Shown: one piece after another, positions 26,441 to 43,667 of the stretch
How positions within the stretch are numbered: the first letter of the stretch is position 1
How the letters are laid out: each line of letters opens with the position of its first letter
Source: Candidatus Scalindua sp. SCAELEC01
GTDB lineage: Bacteria > Planctomycetota > Brocadiia > Brocadiales > Scalinduaceae
DNA: 64,000 nt
Assembly: GCA_004282745.1 (NCBI GenBank)
Contig: SHMT01000007.1
Location: forward strand, 62,001 to 126,000
Reading direction: 5' to 3'
Notes under the pieces: generated by a model
The model's database searches: none
What the model was told of the DNA's origin: nothing
Seen by the model: only the letters and a program-made list of their open reading frames with translations
Program-made: the position numbers and the translations under genes

Positions 26441-27249
26441 TGAGTAAAATTTCACAGAAAGAGATCAATGATACCGCATGGGTGGCATGTGACACCTTCC
26501 GGAGTGTGGTCGATCCGGACCAATACAAGGACTATATTCTGGTAATGCTTTTTCTTAAATATATTTCCGATGTCTGGAGGGGTCATTATGAGAAGTACAA
26601 AAAACAGTACGACAATAATGAGGAGCGAATTCGAAGAAAGCTGGAACGGGAACGTTTTGTACTGCCAATTGTAAAAATGAAGGAAACCGACACGGGAACG
26701 ATAACAGATTCCTTCCTTGCAGGCTATTATCGTTTGTATGTCATCGGCAACACCTATATATACCTTATAGAGCGTTTTGGCAGTGACGCGGGTAAGAAGG
26801 CGGGTGAATTCTATACCCCGCATCAGGTTTCAAAGCTGCTTGCCGCATTAGCAAGCACGAAGGCCGGCGACAGGACATACGATCCGTCCTGTGGTTCAGG
26901 CGGACTGCTGATCGAGGCGGCCCGTAAAGTTGGTGAGAAGAATTTTGCGCTCTTCGGTGAAGAGGTCAACGGCTCTACCTGGGCGCTGAAGATGCTGCGG
27001 ATGATCCTTACCGGCGTTTTATACGTGGAGTTCCGCCGAAGAGCAAAGGCGACTGGGCATTTATCCTGATCCTTTGAGGAGGTTAAGGAGAACGACTTCA
27101 ATCTCAACATACCGCGCTATGTGGATACCTTTGAAGAGGAGGAGGAGATTGACATCGATGCCGTACAACTGGAGATTGATGAGCTGGAAAAAGAACTTTC
27201 CGGTGTGAGGAAGAAGATGGCGAAAATGCTTAAAAAGGTGGTGATATGA
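26441..27249 (+). pseudogene. Decayed type I methyltransferase gene (hsdM)
   Basis: The ATG at 26441 starts an HsdM N-terminus (ISQKEINDTAWVACDTFR, YILVMLFLKYISDVW). After residue about 75 a stretch typical of HsdM is missing, and the frame resumes at VIGNTYIYLIERFGSDAGK and GEFYTPHQVSKLLA with SAM motif DPSCGSGGLLIEA. After NGSTWALKM the central catalytic block, including the NPPF motif, is absent. Pieces PPKSKGDWAFI and FEEVKENDFNLNIPRYVDTF continue in other frames to a TGA at 27247. At least two deletions and two frameshifts are visible, so no active enzyme is made. Its tail overlaps the rhuM start (ATGA). Confidence 0.8.
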
Positions 27250-28328
27250 AAAAAACACGAAAAGGAGTAAATGATCTCAACTCTTTTCCGGAAGAGATCG
27301 GAAAAAGCGAGATACTGGTCTACAAGACCGATGATGGGCAAATCAAGATTGATGTGCGTCTGGAAGAGGAGACCGTTTGGCTCACCCAGCAACTAATGGC
27401 AAAGTTGTTTCAGACCACACAGCAGAACATCAGTCTGCATATCCGAAACATATATGAGGAGAGCGAATTAGAACCGCACGCAACTTACAAGAAATACTTG
27501 TCAGTTCGGCGTGAGGGCAACCGGAAAATACAACGCCTTCTTGATTATTACAATCTGGATATGATTATTTCAGTCGGCTACCGGGTAAAAAGCTTAGTTG
27601 CTACGCGGTTCCGAATATGGGCAACCCAGCGCTTAAAAGAGTATATCATCAAAGGATTTACCATGGACGACGAACGGCTGAAGAACCCGCCAGTAGCTGG
27701 TTCTCCTGTGCCTGATTATTTTGATGAAATGCTGGAGCGCATCCGTGATATCCGCGCCAGTGAACGGCGGATGTATTTACGGGTGCGAGAAATTTTCTCC
27801 ATGGCAGGCGATTACGATCCGTCATTGTCGGAAACGTCAAAGTTTTTCAGCATCATTCAGAATAAGCTGCATTTTGCCGCCACAGGAATGACAGCAGCGG
27901 AATTACTCCAAAACCGTGCCGATCACTCTCTGCCAAACATGGGGCTTACCAGTTGGAAGGCTGGCGAAGTACTCAAGTCAGATGTAACCGTTGCCAAGAA
28001 CTACCTGAAAGAGGACGAAATTGAAGAACTAAACCGAATTGTGGTCATGTGGCTTGACTATGCCGAAGACCAGGCCAGACGCCGCAAACAGGTTTTTATG
28101 AAAGATTGGGAACGGAAGCTGGACGAGTTCTTGAGATTCAACGAACGGAATGTGCTTCCTGACGCTGGCAAGGTTGGAAAGAAGGCTGCCGATGACCATG
28201 CTAAACGGGAATATGGCAGGTTTACTGAGCGCCGCCGGAAGCATAAGGAAGCCATTGGTGAGGCTGAGTCCATCAAGGCGCTAGAAGAAGCGGCCAAAAG
28301 TCTGCCGAAGGGGAAGAAAAATGAATAA
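27246..28328 (+). CDS. RhuM family protein (virulence RhuM-like)
   Basis: A full-length 360-residue RhuM-type protein. The N-terminal KIDVRLEEETVWLTQQLMAKLF followed by VRREGNRKIQRLLDYYNLDM and RFRIWATQRLKEYIIKGF is the conserved Fic/DOC-adjacent RhuM core. The C-terminal half is helical and charged. RhuM genes are commonly inserted between type I restriction genes; their function is not established, though a regulatory or toxin-related role has been proposed. It starts at an ATG overlapping the decayed hsdM stop. A truncated relative is encoded at 57607. Confidence 0.88.
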   Translation: MKKTRKGVNDLNSFPEEIGKSEILVYKTDDGQIKIDVRLEEETVWLTQQLMAKLFQTTQQNISLHIRNIYEESELEPHATYKKYLSVRREGNRKIQRLLDYYNLDMIISVGYRVKSLVATRFRIWATQRLKEYIIKGFTMDDERLKNPPVAGSPVPDYFDEMLERIRDIRASERRMYLRVREIFSMAGDYDPSLSETSKFFSIIQNKLHFAATGMTAAELLQNRADHSLPNMGLTSWKAGEVLKSDVTVAKNYLKEDEIEELNRIVVMWLDYAEDQARRRKQVFMKDWERKLDEFLRFNERNVLPDAGKVGKKAADDHAKREYGRFTERRRKHKEAIGEAESIKALEEAAKSLPKGKKNE

Positions 28329-28507
28329 CAGTGCTTTCACCGAAAGGTGTGCATACCCAATTTTTGTAGATGAAAAAGGTGGATTCACGCCTGCCGTCGG
28401 GCAGGAAGGACGAAGGACGAATCCACATATACACGGTACCACGCTTGATTTACAAAGCATTGGGGGATACTCCCACCGAAAGAGCTTAGAAAGAAAGAGG
28501 TAATAAG
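28329..28507 (+). other. Spacer between rhuM and fic with a short palindromic repeat
   Basis: Contains GTGGATTC...GAATCCAC arms around a GCCTGCCGTCGGGCAGG core (28379-28427). A 60-codon frame runs through it but has no family resemblance. Confidence 0.4.
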
Positions 28508-29248
28508 ATGGATTTCGAAAAGCTGGACCAATTGAAGCAGAGGCTGGACTCCTTTCGTCCTCTGCCTGTCGAGATCATGAGAAACCTGCACGACGATCTG
28601 GTTTTGCGCTGGACATACAATTCCAACGCCATCGAGGGCAATACCCTGACCCTTAAGGAAACCAGAGTAGTTCTTGAAGGGATTACTATCGGCGGAAAAA
28701 CCCTGAGGGAGCACCTGGAGGTGATCAACCATCGTGAAACAATTTTGTATGTGGAAGAGTTGGCGCGGCAGAAGGAAGCGCTCTCCGAATGGCAGATCAA
28801 ATCTCTGCATCAACTTATTCTCAAGAAGATCGACGATGCCAATGCCGGAAGATACCGCACCATAAACGTTACTATTTCCGGCGCTACGCACAGGCCGCCC
28901 GACCATTTCAGGCTGGCGGAAGAGATGGCCGGCTTCATTAGCTGGTATAAGACTAAAGGCCGGGACCTCCATCCGGTTGAGCGTGCCGCCCTTGTTCATG
29001 CGGATTTTGTCAAGATCCATCCCTTTGTCGACGGAAATGGCCGCACCTCGCGCCTGCTCATGAATCTGGAACTGATGAAATCTGGATTCCCCCCGGCGGT
29101 TCTGCCCGTCGAGAAACGGTTGGCCTATTACGAGGCGCTGGATACTGCCCACACCCGGGAGAATTACGAGCCATTTCTTGCCTTGATTTTTGAGGTTGTA
29201 GAGCAGAGTTTTGAGCCTTACTGGTTTGCGCTGGGAGAGAAAGCGTGA
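28508..29248 (+). CDS. Fic family AMP-transferase
   Basis: A 246-residue Fic protein. The active-site loop HPFVDGNGRTSR lies at about residues 178-189, and the N-terminal inhibitory helix SNAIEGN (residues 39-45) matches (S/T)xxxE(G/N), so it is an auto-inhibited class II Fic. It would transfer AMP from ATP to a protein Ser, Thr or Tyr. The GGTAATAAG before the ATG gives a modest ribosome binding site. It is separated from rhuM by about 180 bp that contains a short hairpin-forming repeat. Confidence 0.92.
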   Translation: MDFEKLDQLKQRLDSFRPLPVEIMRNLHDDLVLRWTYNSNAIEGNTLTLKETRVVLEGITIGGKTLREHLEVINHRETILYVEELARQKEALSEWQIKSLHQLILKKIDDANAGRYRTINVTISGATHRPPDHFRLAEEMAGFISWYKTKGRDLHPVERAALVHADFVKIHPFVDGNGRTSRLLMNLELMKSGFPPAVLPVEKRLAYYEALDTAHTRENYEPFLALIFEVVEQSFEPYWFALGEKA

Positions 29249-29295
29249 AAAATGGTTTATGCCTGCACAATTAACACATATTTTTATTAAAACGT

Positions 29296-29332
29296 CTTAT
29301 ACTTGTCATTCTCGCATGCTTTTAGCGGGAAT
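29296..29332 (+). repeat. Short GTCATTCCCGC-type palindrome
   Basis: TTGTCATTCTCGC and GCGGGAATGACAA arms enclose a TGCTTTTA loop. The same hairpin family recurs inside the element at 39772-39937. Confidence 0.6.
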
Positions 29333-29357
29333 GACAAAAAGGGGAAAAAAGATCAAA

Positions 29358-29468
29358 AGCAAATCAGAAGCCAACAAGACCCATCATGAGGTCGGCGCCA
29401 GGGTACGTCAGACCATCAAGGAACTTGGCGGTACTATGCCAGAGGAGTTGCCTGCGCCGGAGAAGAGC
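29358..29468 (+). pseudogene. Fragment of DNA-damage-inducible protein D gene (dinD)
   Basis: The 37 codons from about 29358 read KSEANKTHHEVGARVRQ followed by IKELGGTMPEELPAP. This closely matches the C-terminal end of DinD (known pattern VRQTIxELGGTMPEELPTP). The N-terminal BRO-like domain and most of the gene are missing, replaced by a palindromic repeat. The open frame around it (29211-29510) is therefore accidental. Confidence 0.7.
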
Positions 29469-29615
29469 GCATTTGTAGGAGCACACAGGGCAGTGTGCGC
29501 GAAACCGTAAGTTTTACTGACCTTGAAGCAATACTTTTTCCGCTTCCACCGCTGATATACCAAAAAAAATAGCAGAAACCTTAAACACCGCCCCGGCAGG
29601 AAATCAACTGCAAAT

Positions 29616-30575
29616 GTGAATGGTGGCTATATTGTTTTTGGTATTGCAAACCGACCTCATACTTTGAGGGGATTACAAGGAGCGAATTTAGAAACTTTTG
29701 AACGTCTTGACCCCGAACAGCTAACTAATCATTTCAATGAGCATTTTTCTCCTGAAATAGAATGGAGTATACATCAATATGAGCTTGAAGAAAAGGTATA
29801 CGGCCTGCTTTATGTAAACGAGTCTAAAAGCAAGCCGGTAATTTGTTGCAAGAATGCGGGCAACGAGCTAAAAGAGGGAGATATTTATTACCGATATAGA
29901 GGACGCACTCAACGTATTAAGTACCCTGAACTCCGTGCGATTCTTGATGCACGGCGTGAATACGAACAACAAATATGGATGCGGCATATCTCAAACATTG
30001 CCCAGATAGGTGTTCGTAATGTTTGTATATTCGATCTTCACACAGGCCAAGTTACAGGGTCTGGCGGGTCATTTCTCATCGAAGAATCACTTCTCAGTCA
30101 ATTGTCTTTCATAAAAGAAGGCGAGTTTTCTGAAGTGAAAGGCAAGCCGGCACTCAAGCTAATTGGTAATGTCGAATCAATTGGTACCATTCCTTCGCGT
30201 ATCGGCAAGAAACAGATTGTAAAAACAAAAGGGATTCGCGTAGGGGATATCGTCGGAACCTTCTTGAACAAAAGTCCTGTCACAGAGCCACATGAGTTTA
30301 TCAAACAAATATGTTTTGAAAGCACGGCTTTTCTACCTGTTTATTATTACATGCATTTGGCAGGTCTTGATAGAGACAATACTATTGAGATGTTAAATAG
30401 TGTTGTTTCAAGGTCAACATCCAAGGCAAAACTTAAAGAACGACTAACGAACAAATCAACTCAACAGTTAAGCCTGTCTAATGTTGATACTTCTTCTGCT
30501 AAAAAGAAACGCGAATTTGCAATGCAACTGATAAACAACTCTGTGGATCCAATGTTGTCTGGTAAAAAACCTTGA
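29616..30575 (+). CDS. AlbA_2 / Schlafen-type domain protein, probably N-terminally truncated
   Basis: From a GTG at 29616 the 319-residue product starts inside an AlbA_2 domain (NGGYIVFGIANRPHTLRGL). In intact homologues this is preceded by about 50 residues containing EFK and AFAN motifs, which are not seen here in the same frame. The sequence continues with EGDIYYRYRGRTQRIKYPEL as in helicase-like Schlafen AAA_4 proteins and then an unrecognised C-terminal region. The upstream in-frame stop at 29553 leaves room for only about 20 more codons. It is likely a truncated, possibly inactive gene. Nucleic-acid binding is inferred from the family. Confidence 0.6.
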   Translation: MNGGYIVFGIANRPHTLRGLQGANLETFERLDPEQLTNHFNEHFSPEIEWSIHQYELEEKVYGLLYVNESKSKPVICCKNAGNELKEGDIYYRYRGRTQRIKYPELRAILDARREYEQQIWMRHISNIAQIGVRNVCIFDLHTGQVTGSGGSFLIEESLLSQLSFIKEGEFSEVKGKPALKLIGNVESIGTIPSRIGKKQIVKTKGIRVGDIVGTFLNKSPVTEPHEFIKQICFESTAFLPVYYYMHLAGLDRDNTIEMLNSVVSRSTSKAKLKERLTNKSTQQLSLSNVDTSSAKKKREFAMQLINNSVDPMLSGKKP

Positions 30576-30762: not shown

Positions 30763-30903
30763 TGAAAGACAAATTGCCCAACCTGGCCAAGCCAAAACCA
30801 AAAAAGGAATGTATGTCTTAAGGTAAAACCGCTTTCAGCGGGTTGTCATTCATCAGTCTTAATTTGAATAGTATAGTCTTTTTGAGCCTTCAGTATTTTA
30901 CTT

Positions 30904-31385
30904 TAACGCAGAGGATGCAGAGGGTATAAATACTGATGTTAAATATGAAGGGAGCTCTTCATTATGCATGAAAACGAGATATCAGAAAATATAATCGGTG
31001 CTGCAATAGAAGTACATCGTATTTTGGGACCAGGACTTCTAGAATCTGTTTATGAAGATGCGCTTTGCCATGAGTTACATCTGAGAGGTTCGCAATTTAA
31101 AAGACAACAGAGTGTACCAATTCCTTATAAAGGAATCAAGCTCGGAACAGAACTTCGCTTGGACTTATTAGTAGAAGATAAGGTGATTGTAGATTTGAAA
31201 GCTAAAGAAGACTTAACAACGCTAGATAAGCCGAAACTGCTGACATATTTACGGCTTGGTGATAAACATTTAGGTTTGATAATCAATTTTCATGTTGAAG
31301 TATTACGAGATGGGATTTTCCGGGTAGTCAACAAATTACAGTAAGTTCCCAATAAACTCTGCGACCTCTGCGCCTCTGCGTTAAG
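30904..31385. mobile_element. GxxExxY cassette bounded by inverted GCAGAGG repeats
   Basis: Left end TAACGCAGAGGATGCAGAGG (30904-30923) and right end ending CGCCTCTGCGTTAAG (31357-31385) are inverted copies of each other. They enclose exactly one gene. The same ends without a gene are at 43336-43460, and an analogous GCAAAG-type pair lies at 41927-42010. I infer a mobile cassette; the mechanism is not known. Confidence 0.5.
30964..31344 (+). CDS. GxxExxY protein (PD-(D/E)XK-like)
   Basis: A 126-residue protein with the family signature: IIGAAIEVHRILGPGLLESVY (residues about 10-30, G-x-x-x-E-V-H), RLDLLVEDKVIVDLKAKEDL (D...K nuclease-like core) and the ending LGLIINF. The fold is predicted to be PD-(D/E)XK-like (PF13366). 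AGGGAGCTC precedes the ATG. Function is unsettled; such genes are often flanked by repeated DNA, as here, so it may promote its own mobility or repair. Confidence 0.9.
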   Translation: MHENEISENIIGAAIEVHRILGPGLLESVYEDALCHELHLRGSQFKRQQSVPIPYKGIKLGTELRLDLLVEDKVIVDLKAKEDLTTLDKPKLLTYLRLGDKHLGLIINFHVEVLRDGIFRVVNKLQ

Positions 31386-31770
31386 GTAACTTAATTTTCA
31401 GTTTAAACATTATCAATTTAACAACTTACAAAACTAACGAAAACATGTTGGTCATTTTGGCGTGGTAAGCGCCTAGGAGATAATTGAATGGAAGGCTTCC
31501 GCTTCAACGAAAAATACCTCTCACAAATTCCAGCGCTTCAGCGTAAAATGTCGCTAACTTATTTTTACTCGCAGGAATAGAATCCGGTCAAATTACAGGA
31601 ATTTTATCAAAAAGTCCCGTGTGCAGGAAACAGTAAAATCAGTTCTTCTCCCGACAGGCGATATTTCTCCCTGTAATGAGAAATATTTTTTCGTGTAATA
31701 AACATCAACGTTGACTATAATGAGACGAGTAGAAAAACTGTTTGTATGAATATTTCGACAAGGAGTTCCG
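31345..31770. other. Intergenic stretch before the first 2-oxoacid oxidoreductase operon
   Basis: Holds the right repeat of the GxxExxY cassette and AT-rich sequence. The promoter of the plus-strand operon should lie near 31690-31750, with GGAG before the ATG at 31771. No gene is seen. Confidence 0.4.
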
Positions 31771-39771: not shown

Positions 39772-39937
39772 CATTAGCGTCCGGGTAGGTTTTTGCGTGC
39801 GTAACTTATTACCCCAAAGCAGTCATTCCCGCATGTTTTTAGCGGGAATCTAGGGTGAAACGAGCCCCTGGATACCCGATAGAGGCGTTCGGGTATGACA
39901 AAAGCCGACTACGCAAAAACCTACCCGGACGCTAATG
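39772..39937. repeat. 166-bp element with 27-bp perfect inverted ends
   Basis: Left arm 39772-39798 (CATTAGCGTCCGGGTAGG...) and right arm 39911-39937 are exact inverted copies over 27 bases. Between them lies a GTCATTCCCGC...GCGGGAATC hairpin and a GATACCCGATAG...CGGGTATGAC segment, so smaller palindromes are nested inside. No open frame fills it. Confidence 0.8.
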
Positions 39938-40018
39938 AAAAAAATACAACGCAACGCGGCTTTATCAGTCGTTGAGTAAGAAGATTACCAATCAGGGTAT
40001 TATATAAAATGAGATTTG

Positions 40019-40100: not shown

Positions 40101-40220
40101 CTAGGCCTGCAGAGTCATTGGCTGCCCACAGCACTCTAAAGTCCCCGCTCCCCCCTCTTTTACCTCAACAACTGAACCACATATTTCGCACTCGTATGTT
40201 TCACCACTTTCTGTTGGCAT
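40101..40220 (-). CDS. Desulforedoxin-like mini-protein (39 residues)
   Basis: A 39-residue open frame with an excellent ribosome site (AAGGAG, 8 nt before the ATG at 40220). The product contains [16 protein letters not shown] and then LECCGQPM. CxxC followed by an adjacent Cys pair is the Fe(S-Cys)4 ligand set of desulforedoxin and of the N-terminal domain of desulfoferrodoxin. It binds one iron and would act as a small electron carrier or as a relic of a superoxide reductase. No superoxide reductase catalytic domain follows. It is divergent from the dehydrogenase gene and stands alone. Confidence 0.85.
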
Positions 40221-40472
40221 TGATATTTCTCCTTTCTATTTACCGTTATCAGTGTAGGGAGTTCGAAAAAACTTTCCCGAACCCTCGTAATAAAAACACG
40301 TAACCTCTTTGATTTGTTCCTCATAAAATCCTGTTTTATTTTATCCACTTATGCGGAAAGCGCAAGAAAAAGTTCGGCCACTATAAAATTTGGTAAATAA
40401 TGTTTATAGAATTCTAACACCTTAGAAAAATATTTAACTTTCTGGATCTATCCGCTCCAGAACAGACTACCT

Positions 40473-41842: not shown

Positions 41843-41885
41843 GGTGCAGGAAAGAATGACTTGTTGTTTTATAAGTTGTTAAATA
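41841..41885 (+). repeat. Solo end of the AGGGCCCAGGAAAGAAT repeat family
   Basis: AGGGTGCAGGAAAGAATGAC and TTGTTGTTTTATAAG match the left end of the complete element at 50721-50933 for more than 30 bases. It begins at the dehydrogenase stop codon. Confidence 0.6.
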
Positions 41886-41926
41886 CCTTATGTCTAAACT
41901 GATAATTTCAGATTAAATTACTAATA

Positions 41927-42010
41927 CTCACGCAAAGCCGCAAAGTTCGCTAAGAAAAAACATAGTCCAAAAGCTACATCCCCTTTGCGCTCTTTGCGCC
42001 TTAGCGTGAG
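41927..42010. repeat. Inverted GCAAAG-type repeats without a gene inside
   Basis: CTCACGCAAAGCCGCAAAG (41927 on) pairs with CTTTGCGCCTTAGCGTGAG (to 42010) around a 29-nt loop. It resembles the ends of the GxxExxY cassette and may also act as a transcription terminator for the dehydrogenase gene. Confidence 0.6.
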
Positions 42011-43327: not shown

Positions 43328-43335
43328 TATTTTTC

Positions 43336-43460
43336 TTAACGCAGAGGTCGCAGAGTAAAGATAGGGATTCCTATTTTGCCCGACCGACTCAGCCGTTCGG
43401 ACGGAAACTCCAGCAACAAAATTTTGTTTTTCTCTGCGATCTCTGCGCCTCTGCGTTAAG
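43336..43460. repeat. Empty GCAGAGG inverted-repeat pair
   Basis: CTTAACGCAGAGGTCGCAGAG (43336-43356) and the inverted end CGCCTCTGCGTTAAG (to 43460) match the ends of the GxxExxY cassette at 30904-31385, but only about 75 bp with no gene lies between them. Confidence 0.6.
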
Positions 43461-43554
43461 GTATCTTAGTCTAAAATTATCCGTTTAAGCACCATGAACA
43501 AAGCTACTTATAAAACGACGACAACATGTTAGTAACTTTGCCACTCTAAGCGCC

Positions 43555-43667
43555 TATACTAAAACCGATTTGGTTTTCGGTTTTACCGGAAACCAAATCT
43601 TGGTTGCAGTTATACTCGCTCAATTTTATCTCGGATTTTATCCGAAAACCATTGTAAGATGAGTATA
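43555..43667 (+). repeat. MITE-like element, TATACT-ended family, copy 2 (short)
   Basis: TATACTAAAACCGATTTGG to GATGAGTATA, 113 bp. It lacks the GC-rich centre of the two other copies but keeps both ends and the TTTATCTCGGATTTTATCC block. Confidence 0.75.

Follow-up and report, generated by a model that had tools for sequence, protein, structure and literature searches.

Why should a gene for a small protein of the GxxExxY family lie between inverted repeats, and why should similar pairs of repeats with no gene between them be present in the same DNA? These questions are raised by the window, the whole stretch of 64,000 nucleotides analysed here (contig C14, positions 62001–126000), which comes from a Candidatus Scalindua genome of 4.59 Mb in 104 contigs. 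An earlier note on this DNA had described GCAGAGG-type inverted ends around the GxxExxY gene and around nothing at 43336–43460, as well as a related GCAAAG pair at 41927–42010, and had suggested that a PD-(D/E)XK-like protein travels between such repeats. All three pairs are real. The GxxExxY unit has a length of about 490 bp, and each of its inverted ends is made of tandem copies of a word of about 7 bp. The arms at 30898–30914 and 31373–31389 pair across 17 nt at 94% and enclose the gene, which is confirmed by TIGR04256 and PF13366; the right arm has the layout of a triple repeat, CGCAGAG-N-CGCAGAG-NN-CGCAGAG. In the gene-less GCAGAG pair, 43335–43347 and 43448–43460 match perfectly across 13 nt, and no gene is enclosed. 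The features of the window are as follows:

30889–31392, no strand: mobile unit, with limits set by homology to copies that a different genus has at unrelated sites (G014:C138, 86%; G014:C31, 83%)
30898–30922, plus strand: left inverted end TTACTTTAACGCAGAGGATGCAGAGG, which retains about two units of the word (C)GCAGAG
30964–31344, plus strand: GxxExxY gene, 126 aa, predicted PD-(D/E)XK fold (TIGR04256, PDDEXK_3, AlphaFold, likeness to Cas4/Hjc)
31357–31389, minus strand: right inverted end, with CGCAGAG three times in tandem (reverse complement ACGCAGAGGCGCAGAGGTCGCAGAG)
31393–31475, no strand: outer dispersed repeat, a one-sided companion of several units of the GCAGAG and GCAAAG types
41863–41921, minus strand: outer dispersed repeat, inverted copy adjoining the GCAAAG unit (59 nt, 71%)
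41927–42010, no strand: gene-less unit with the word CGCAAAG/CGCTAAG, inside an insert of about 280 bp that is missing at the syntenic intergenic site of genome G001 from the same genus
43335–43460, no strand: gene-less unit with the GCAGAG word, perfect 13-nt inverted ends, interior partly common to other gene-less copies
43461–43550, no strand: outer dispersed repeat copy adjoining the gene-less GCAGAG unit

When random positions of the window alone were scored, an arm score equal to that of the three pairs was reached at 8/2000, 4/5000, and 4/5000 positions, respectively. Within the window, each pair is only moderately unusual, and the case therefore rests on a wider sample. Across the whole genome, the three-unit word pattern has 60 matches, versus one for the reversed control. 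No Rfam match was found in the window, and no DDE, HUH, or serine transposase gene lies inside the unit; GxxExxY is the only gene between the ends. The outer flank repeat was also considered as an empty host repeat that receives units, and this was rejected, as no contiguous copy of it was found in four genomes.

The GxxExxY protein is a compact predicted PD-(D/E)XK nuclease of the Cas4/Hjc type, in agreement with what the earlier note had supposed. The window copy matches TIGR04256 with 133.7 bits (cut-off 35) and PF13366 (PDDEXK_3) with 126.9 bits (cut-off 22; E 6e-37). The AlphaFold model has a pLDDT of 92.3; its closest solved fold is Cas4 SSO0001 (Z 9.4), followed by lambda-type exonucleases and Hjc (Z 7.4), with a Foldseek E value of only 5e-3, and a sequence search revealed no solved relatives. 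The predicted fold and the active-site pattern are those of the Cas4, lambda-exonuclease, and Hjc nucleases. The active-site residues E27, D67, D/E77, and K79 are conserved in the alignments, position 77 being D in the window copy and E in most others. Two further positions, H88 and Q91, hardly vary across the family; the window copy has D and K there, and with K in place of Q91 it lacks the QxxxY motif. Unlike Cas4, the protein is only 126 aa long and is not in a CRISPR adaptation role, and the window copy has a single cysteine, so it would not hold the Fe–S cluster of Cas4.

The dN/dS values of GxxExxY genes are 0.05–0.18, whether or not the compared copies share a locus, which indicates that the protein is needed; the S23p control set for this statistic consisted of 21 ORFs and was too small and contaminated to yield a firm value. 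Copies stationary at one locus are under purifying selection, with dS up to about 1. Such long retention at low dN/dS points to a role of the protein for the resident copy as well, whereas a jumping gene that is purely selfish would not have to be preserved in this way.

GxxExxY is annotated in 50 of the 59 related genomes, with up to 22 copies in each. The flanks of the gene, whose comparison in many genomes the earlier note had proposed, were examined at 76 loci from named genomes of Planctomycetes, Acidobacteria, Verrucomicrobia, Chloroflexi, Cyanobacteria, Proteobacteria, Bacteroidetes, Nitrospinota, Hydrogenedentota, Armatimonadetes, and other phyla; 334 other ORFs in the same loci served as the control. 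These control ORFs replaced a test of matched versus mismatched arms, which was uninformative because unrelated loci share words. The inverted-end score exceeded the 99th percentile of the control at 57/76 loci and its maximum at 49/76, while at 19/76 loci the score was not above the 99th percentile. Inverted tandem-word ends at GxxExxY genes thus occur in at least ten phyla. They are likewise present in records of Bacteroides, Bernardetia, and Sphingomonas, for example, between fabD and fabG. In each end, the word occurs about three times in a row, as in CGCAAAG-N-CGCAAAG-NN-CGCAAAG. The words vary from element to element (CACAGAG, CGCAAAG, CACGAAG, CACGGAA, CACAGAT, ACAGGAT, and others); within one element, the word agrees between both ends and among the units of one end.

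Two further features of the ends can be noted. A small hairpin similar to CCGACTTGTTCGG is located 10–25 bp beyond the right end of the units in loci L332, L335, L083, L338, and L346; it lies outside units of different word classes and in several genera. In five places in three genomes, the 5' end of a group II intron (RF01999) is inserted in word arrays (L459:1–1583, where an RT ORF is located beside the intron, L460, L466, L467, and L470). The host arrays belong to GxxExxY or gene-less units, and the intron seems to use the unit ends as a target.

The most direct evidence of movement comes from the homology edges. The window unit shares 83–86% identity with two copies in another genus from 30889 to 31387/31392, and the flanks have no homology. 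Among 38 non-syntenic pairs of fetched units that are at least 75% identical, the edges of the homology lie close to the inverted ends, at median distances of 11.5 and 5.5 bp, and both are within 20 bp of the ends in 25/38 pairs. Such copies can be 94.7% identical inside one genome and 96.8% identical between genera. The sample contains one genome per species, including many MAGs, and the element edges were inferred from the arms.

A comparison of sites with and without the unit, also proposed by the earlier note, was possible at loci other than that of the window copy. For five GxxExxY units, the joined flanks match an uninterrupted stretch with no unit in sister species, and the unit is present at that place in other species; gene-less relics at the same site were found in sister species as well. 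A mismatch between the ends and the boundaries of presence and absence, which the earlier note had regarded as fatal to its reading, was looked for and not observed. At the window site itself, the stretch on the left side is not syntenic in G001, and relatives show no synteny at the neighbouring gene. In three close species of the genus g16, no wholly empty site was found among ten loci, only alternative occupants and relics. One junction between RND efflux genes is occupied by a clade A unit in seven species, by a unit of clade B, which has a different word, in G058, and by a gene-less unit in G024; nothing is inserted there in G045 and G036. The junction of cas4-like and cas1-like genes, assigned by eye from the end sequences, contains GxxExxY in G047 and S23p in G034 and G040. 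These data give good support to a unit that is transferred as a block from one intergenic site to another and from one lineage to another.

S23p and GxxExxY units were seen at a junction of cas4-like and cas1-like genes in loci L391, L400, and L404. GxxExxY calls have been reported to adjoin CRISPR-associated RTs (PMC8934634), and units at this junction may explain them. A one-ended unit remnant, CTTCGCGCCTTTGCGGTGAAT, was found in locus L188 (G050), where the site is empty in sister species.

The target duplications that the earlier note had proposed to look for did not rise above background: words shared between the flanks are no longer than in mismatched flank pairs, the sensitivity being limited by the age of the copies. 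No fixed insertion target was found among the unit sites. Both neighbours were called for 76 units; 62 of these were found between same-strand genes, and all 62 are in the sense orientation, none antisense; selection for read-through expression could be the cause. Carriage by phages and plasmids was considered and rejected. There was no match in 50,697 phage records and only three loci in 2.9 million IMG/VR viral contigs, and the seven plasmid records have low identity, several of them resembling chromosome pieces. The 24.8-kb record NZ_OY725952.1 of Bacteroides finegoldii (L215), labelled as a plasmid, contains thrA, radA, and a gene of a TonB receptor and looks chromosomal.

The end word is co-inherited with the protein. 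When the ending of the word (AG versus A/T) is placed on the tree of 109 proteins, it changes 5 times, compared with 24.3 times in shuffles (0/200 as low); this is a short FastTree phylogeny with many open forks. The association of word ending and protein has a Fisher p of 2e-10. In the test of word concordance, the arms were chosen by alignment, which favours concordance. Both GxxExxY clades, each with its own words, coexist in the genome of the window, so it is not the host that determines the word.

A parallel set of units shares this architecture but has words of its own and a protein that is not a nuclease. Genes of S23p, a four-helix-bundle protein, are present in 54 of the 59 relatives and lie between inverted tandem-word ends whose words differ from those of GxxExxY; 15/17 of these units are in the sense orientation. 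The two families look like parallel solutions, and a third party may accordingly move both. At somewhat less than even odds, GxxExxY and S23p units might be two branches of an unrecognised class of transposable elements, in which a protein of about 120 aa co-evolves and moves together with an element-specific word of 7–10 bp, of which each end has about three copies in inverted arrays, in many bacterial phyla and with no known transposase.

Gene-less copies arise by internal deletion. In two sister species, at 97% identity, the full unit in G034 corresponds at one site to a copy without the gene in G040, deleted between GCGAAAGATT repeats; S23p units exhibit the same kind of gene loss. Many copies with both ends and an internal deletion were found in the home genome and its relatives. 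In one gene-less form, a non-coding interior is common to several copies, so this form has multiplied without the gene. Gene-less copies are mostly relics, and some forms multiply as MITE-like passengers. Forms without an ORF are known among the 23S rRNA intervening sequences of Salmonella.

As for the mechanism, we see about an even chance that this is a small mobile element in which the gene of a compact PD-(D/E)XK nuclease lies between word-built inverted ends and the nuclease acts on these ends of its own. We infer that the protein reads the ends mainly because word and protein go together. The nuclease would recognise the word, or the hairpin or cruciform that the ends can form, and would cut or resolve the ends of the unit. 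The excised or copied DNA would then be joined by host repair into a new gap, mostly in operons, and this joining would leave no fixed target duplication. Alternatively, the unit may be mobile with GxxExxY as a passenger or as a gene useful to the host, its ends being moved by a machine shared with S23p units (for example, a transposase, replication slippage, or an RT). This is rather unlikely, although S23p genes, unrelated to nucleases, do lie between the same kind of ends and are found, in sister species, at a junction that GxxExxY also occupies, and stationary GxxExxY copies stay under purifying selection. Each GxxExxY clade and S23p have words of their own, and the fact that the word tracks the GxxExxY tree inside single genomes counts against a shared machine of one specificity.

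An element acting at the level of RNA, similar to the 23S rRNA intervening sequences, with RNase III stems as its ends and spread by an RT in trans, appears improbable. It would agree with the orientation of the 62 sense units and of the S23p units, with the absence of visible target duplications, with the terminal inverted repeats and tandem heptamers of the Coxiella intervening sequence (PMC4990558), and with the location of group II introns in word arrays. However, ordinary operon genes are also mostly sense, and the arm mismatches on the sense strand include 102 G–U and 99 A–C cases; with no bias, pairing of the transcript is not visibly selected. Slightly less probable again is an endonuclease of the homing type, which would cut the empty site anew, so that the unit is copied there by recombination. 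Orthologous sites that contain the unit in several species but not in others, purifying selection on the genes, and the lack of target duplications are expected of it, but the copies are at many unrelated sites with no one conserved target site, and one site accepts unrelated units. It is very improbable that the ends merely act as terminators or processing hairpins of the ordinary kind, with no movement at all: they are intergenic and could form hairpins, but the control ORFs, the empty sites, the homology edges at the ends, and the 97% identity between genera at unrelated sites argue otherwise, and the presence and absence data already contradict this explanation.

The known relatives in kind of a GxxExxY unit with word-built ends are 23S rRNA intervening sequences, MITEs, and the REP/RAYT system, and none of them fits fully. 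The 23S rRNA intervening sequence with S23p is a unit of about 430 nt, sporadically present, with terminal inverted repeats and tandem heptamers that adjoin one ORF of about 120 aa; in Coxiella, these are GACAGAT heptamers before S23p (PMC4990558). GxxExxY units, in contrast, are located between protein genes and not in rRNA, at many sites and with different words, and encode a protein with a predicted nuclease fold. MITEs resemble the gene-less units in being short and without a gene, with inverted ends, and in originating from coding units by internal deletion, whereas for gene-less units neither a target duplication nor a parental DDE transposase was seen, and the parent encodes a PD-(D/E)XK protein. 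REP/REPIN sequences with RAYT are similar in the co-inheritance of protein and palindromic ends, in the dispersed gene-less copies, and in the intergenic location; however, RAYT is a Y1 HUH transposase, while GxxExxY units have a PDDEXK_3 protein and tandem words in inverted arrays. The TAACTGA heptamers of Beggiatoaceae are also tandem, intergenic, and suspected to be mobile, but they are almost always direct and not inverted, and no GxxExxY or S23p was reported alongside (PMC4679880). In the searchable open-access papers, no description of a GxxExxY unit was found, and the family is seldom mentioned by name or accession. A mobile unit that is defined by its GxxExxY gene and whose ends contain a readable code would explain many short intergenic palindromes and odd small ORFs, and would give a gene-based account of the possible spread of S23p-type intervening sequences. 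It also makes the mechanism testable: can so small a nuclease, similar to Cas4 and Hjc, move DNA by means of word-built ends of its own?

Several other elements of the window can be noted. Directly upstream of the GxxExxY unit, at 27246–30575, genes of the RhuM family, Fic-like genes, and Schlafen AlbA_2 genes are located. Two dispersed intergenic repeats, at 39772–39944 and 40106–40241, have many copies in genomes of the family. Adjoining the gene-less GCAGAG unit, at 43555–43667, there is a palindromic repeat of 114 bp with dozens of copies of 90–98% identity in G001 and copies of about 80% in other genera of the family. Apparently, this is another dispersed repeat, recently active or strongly conserved.
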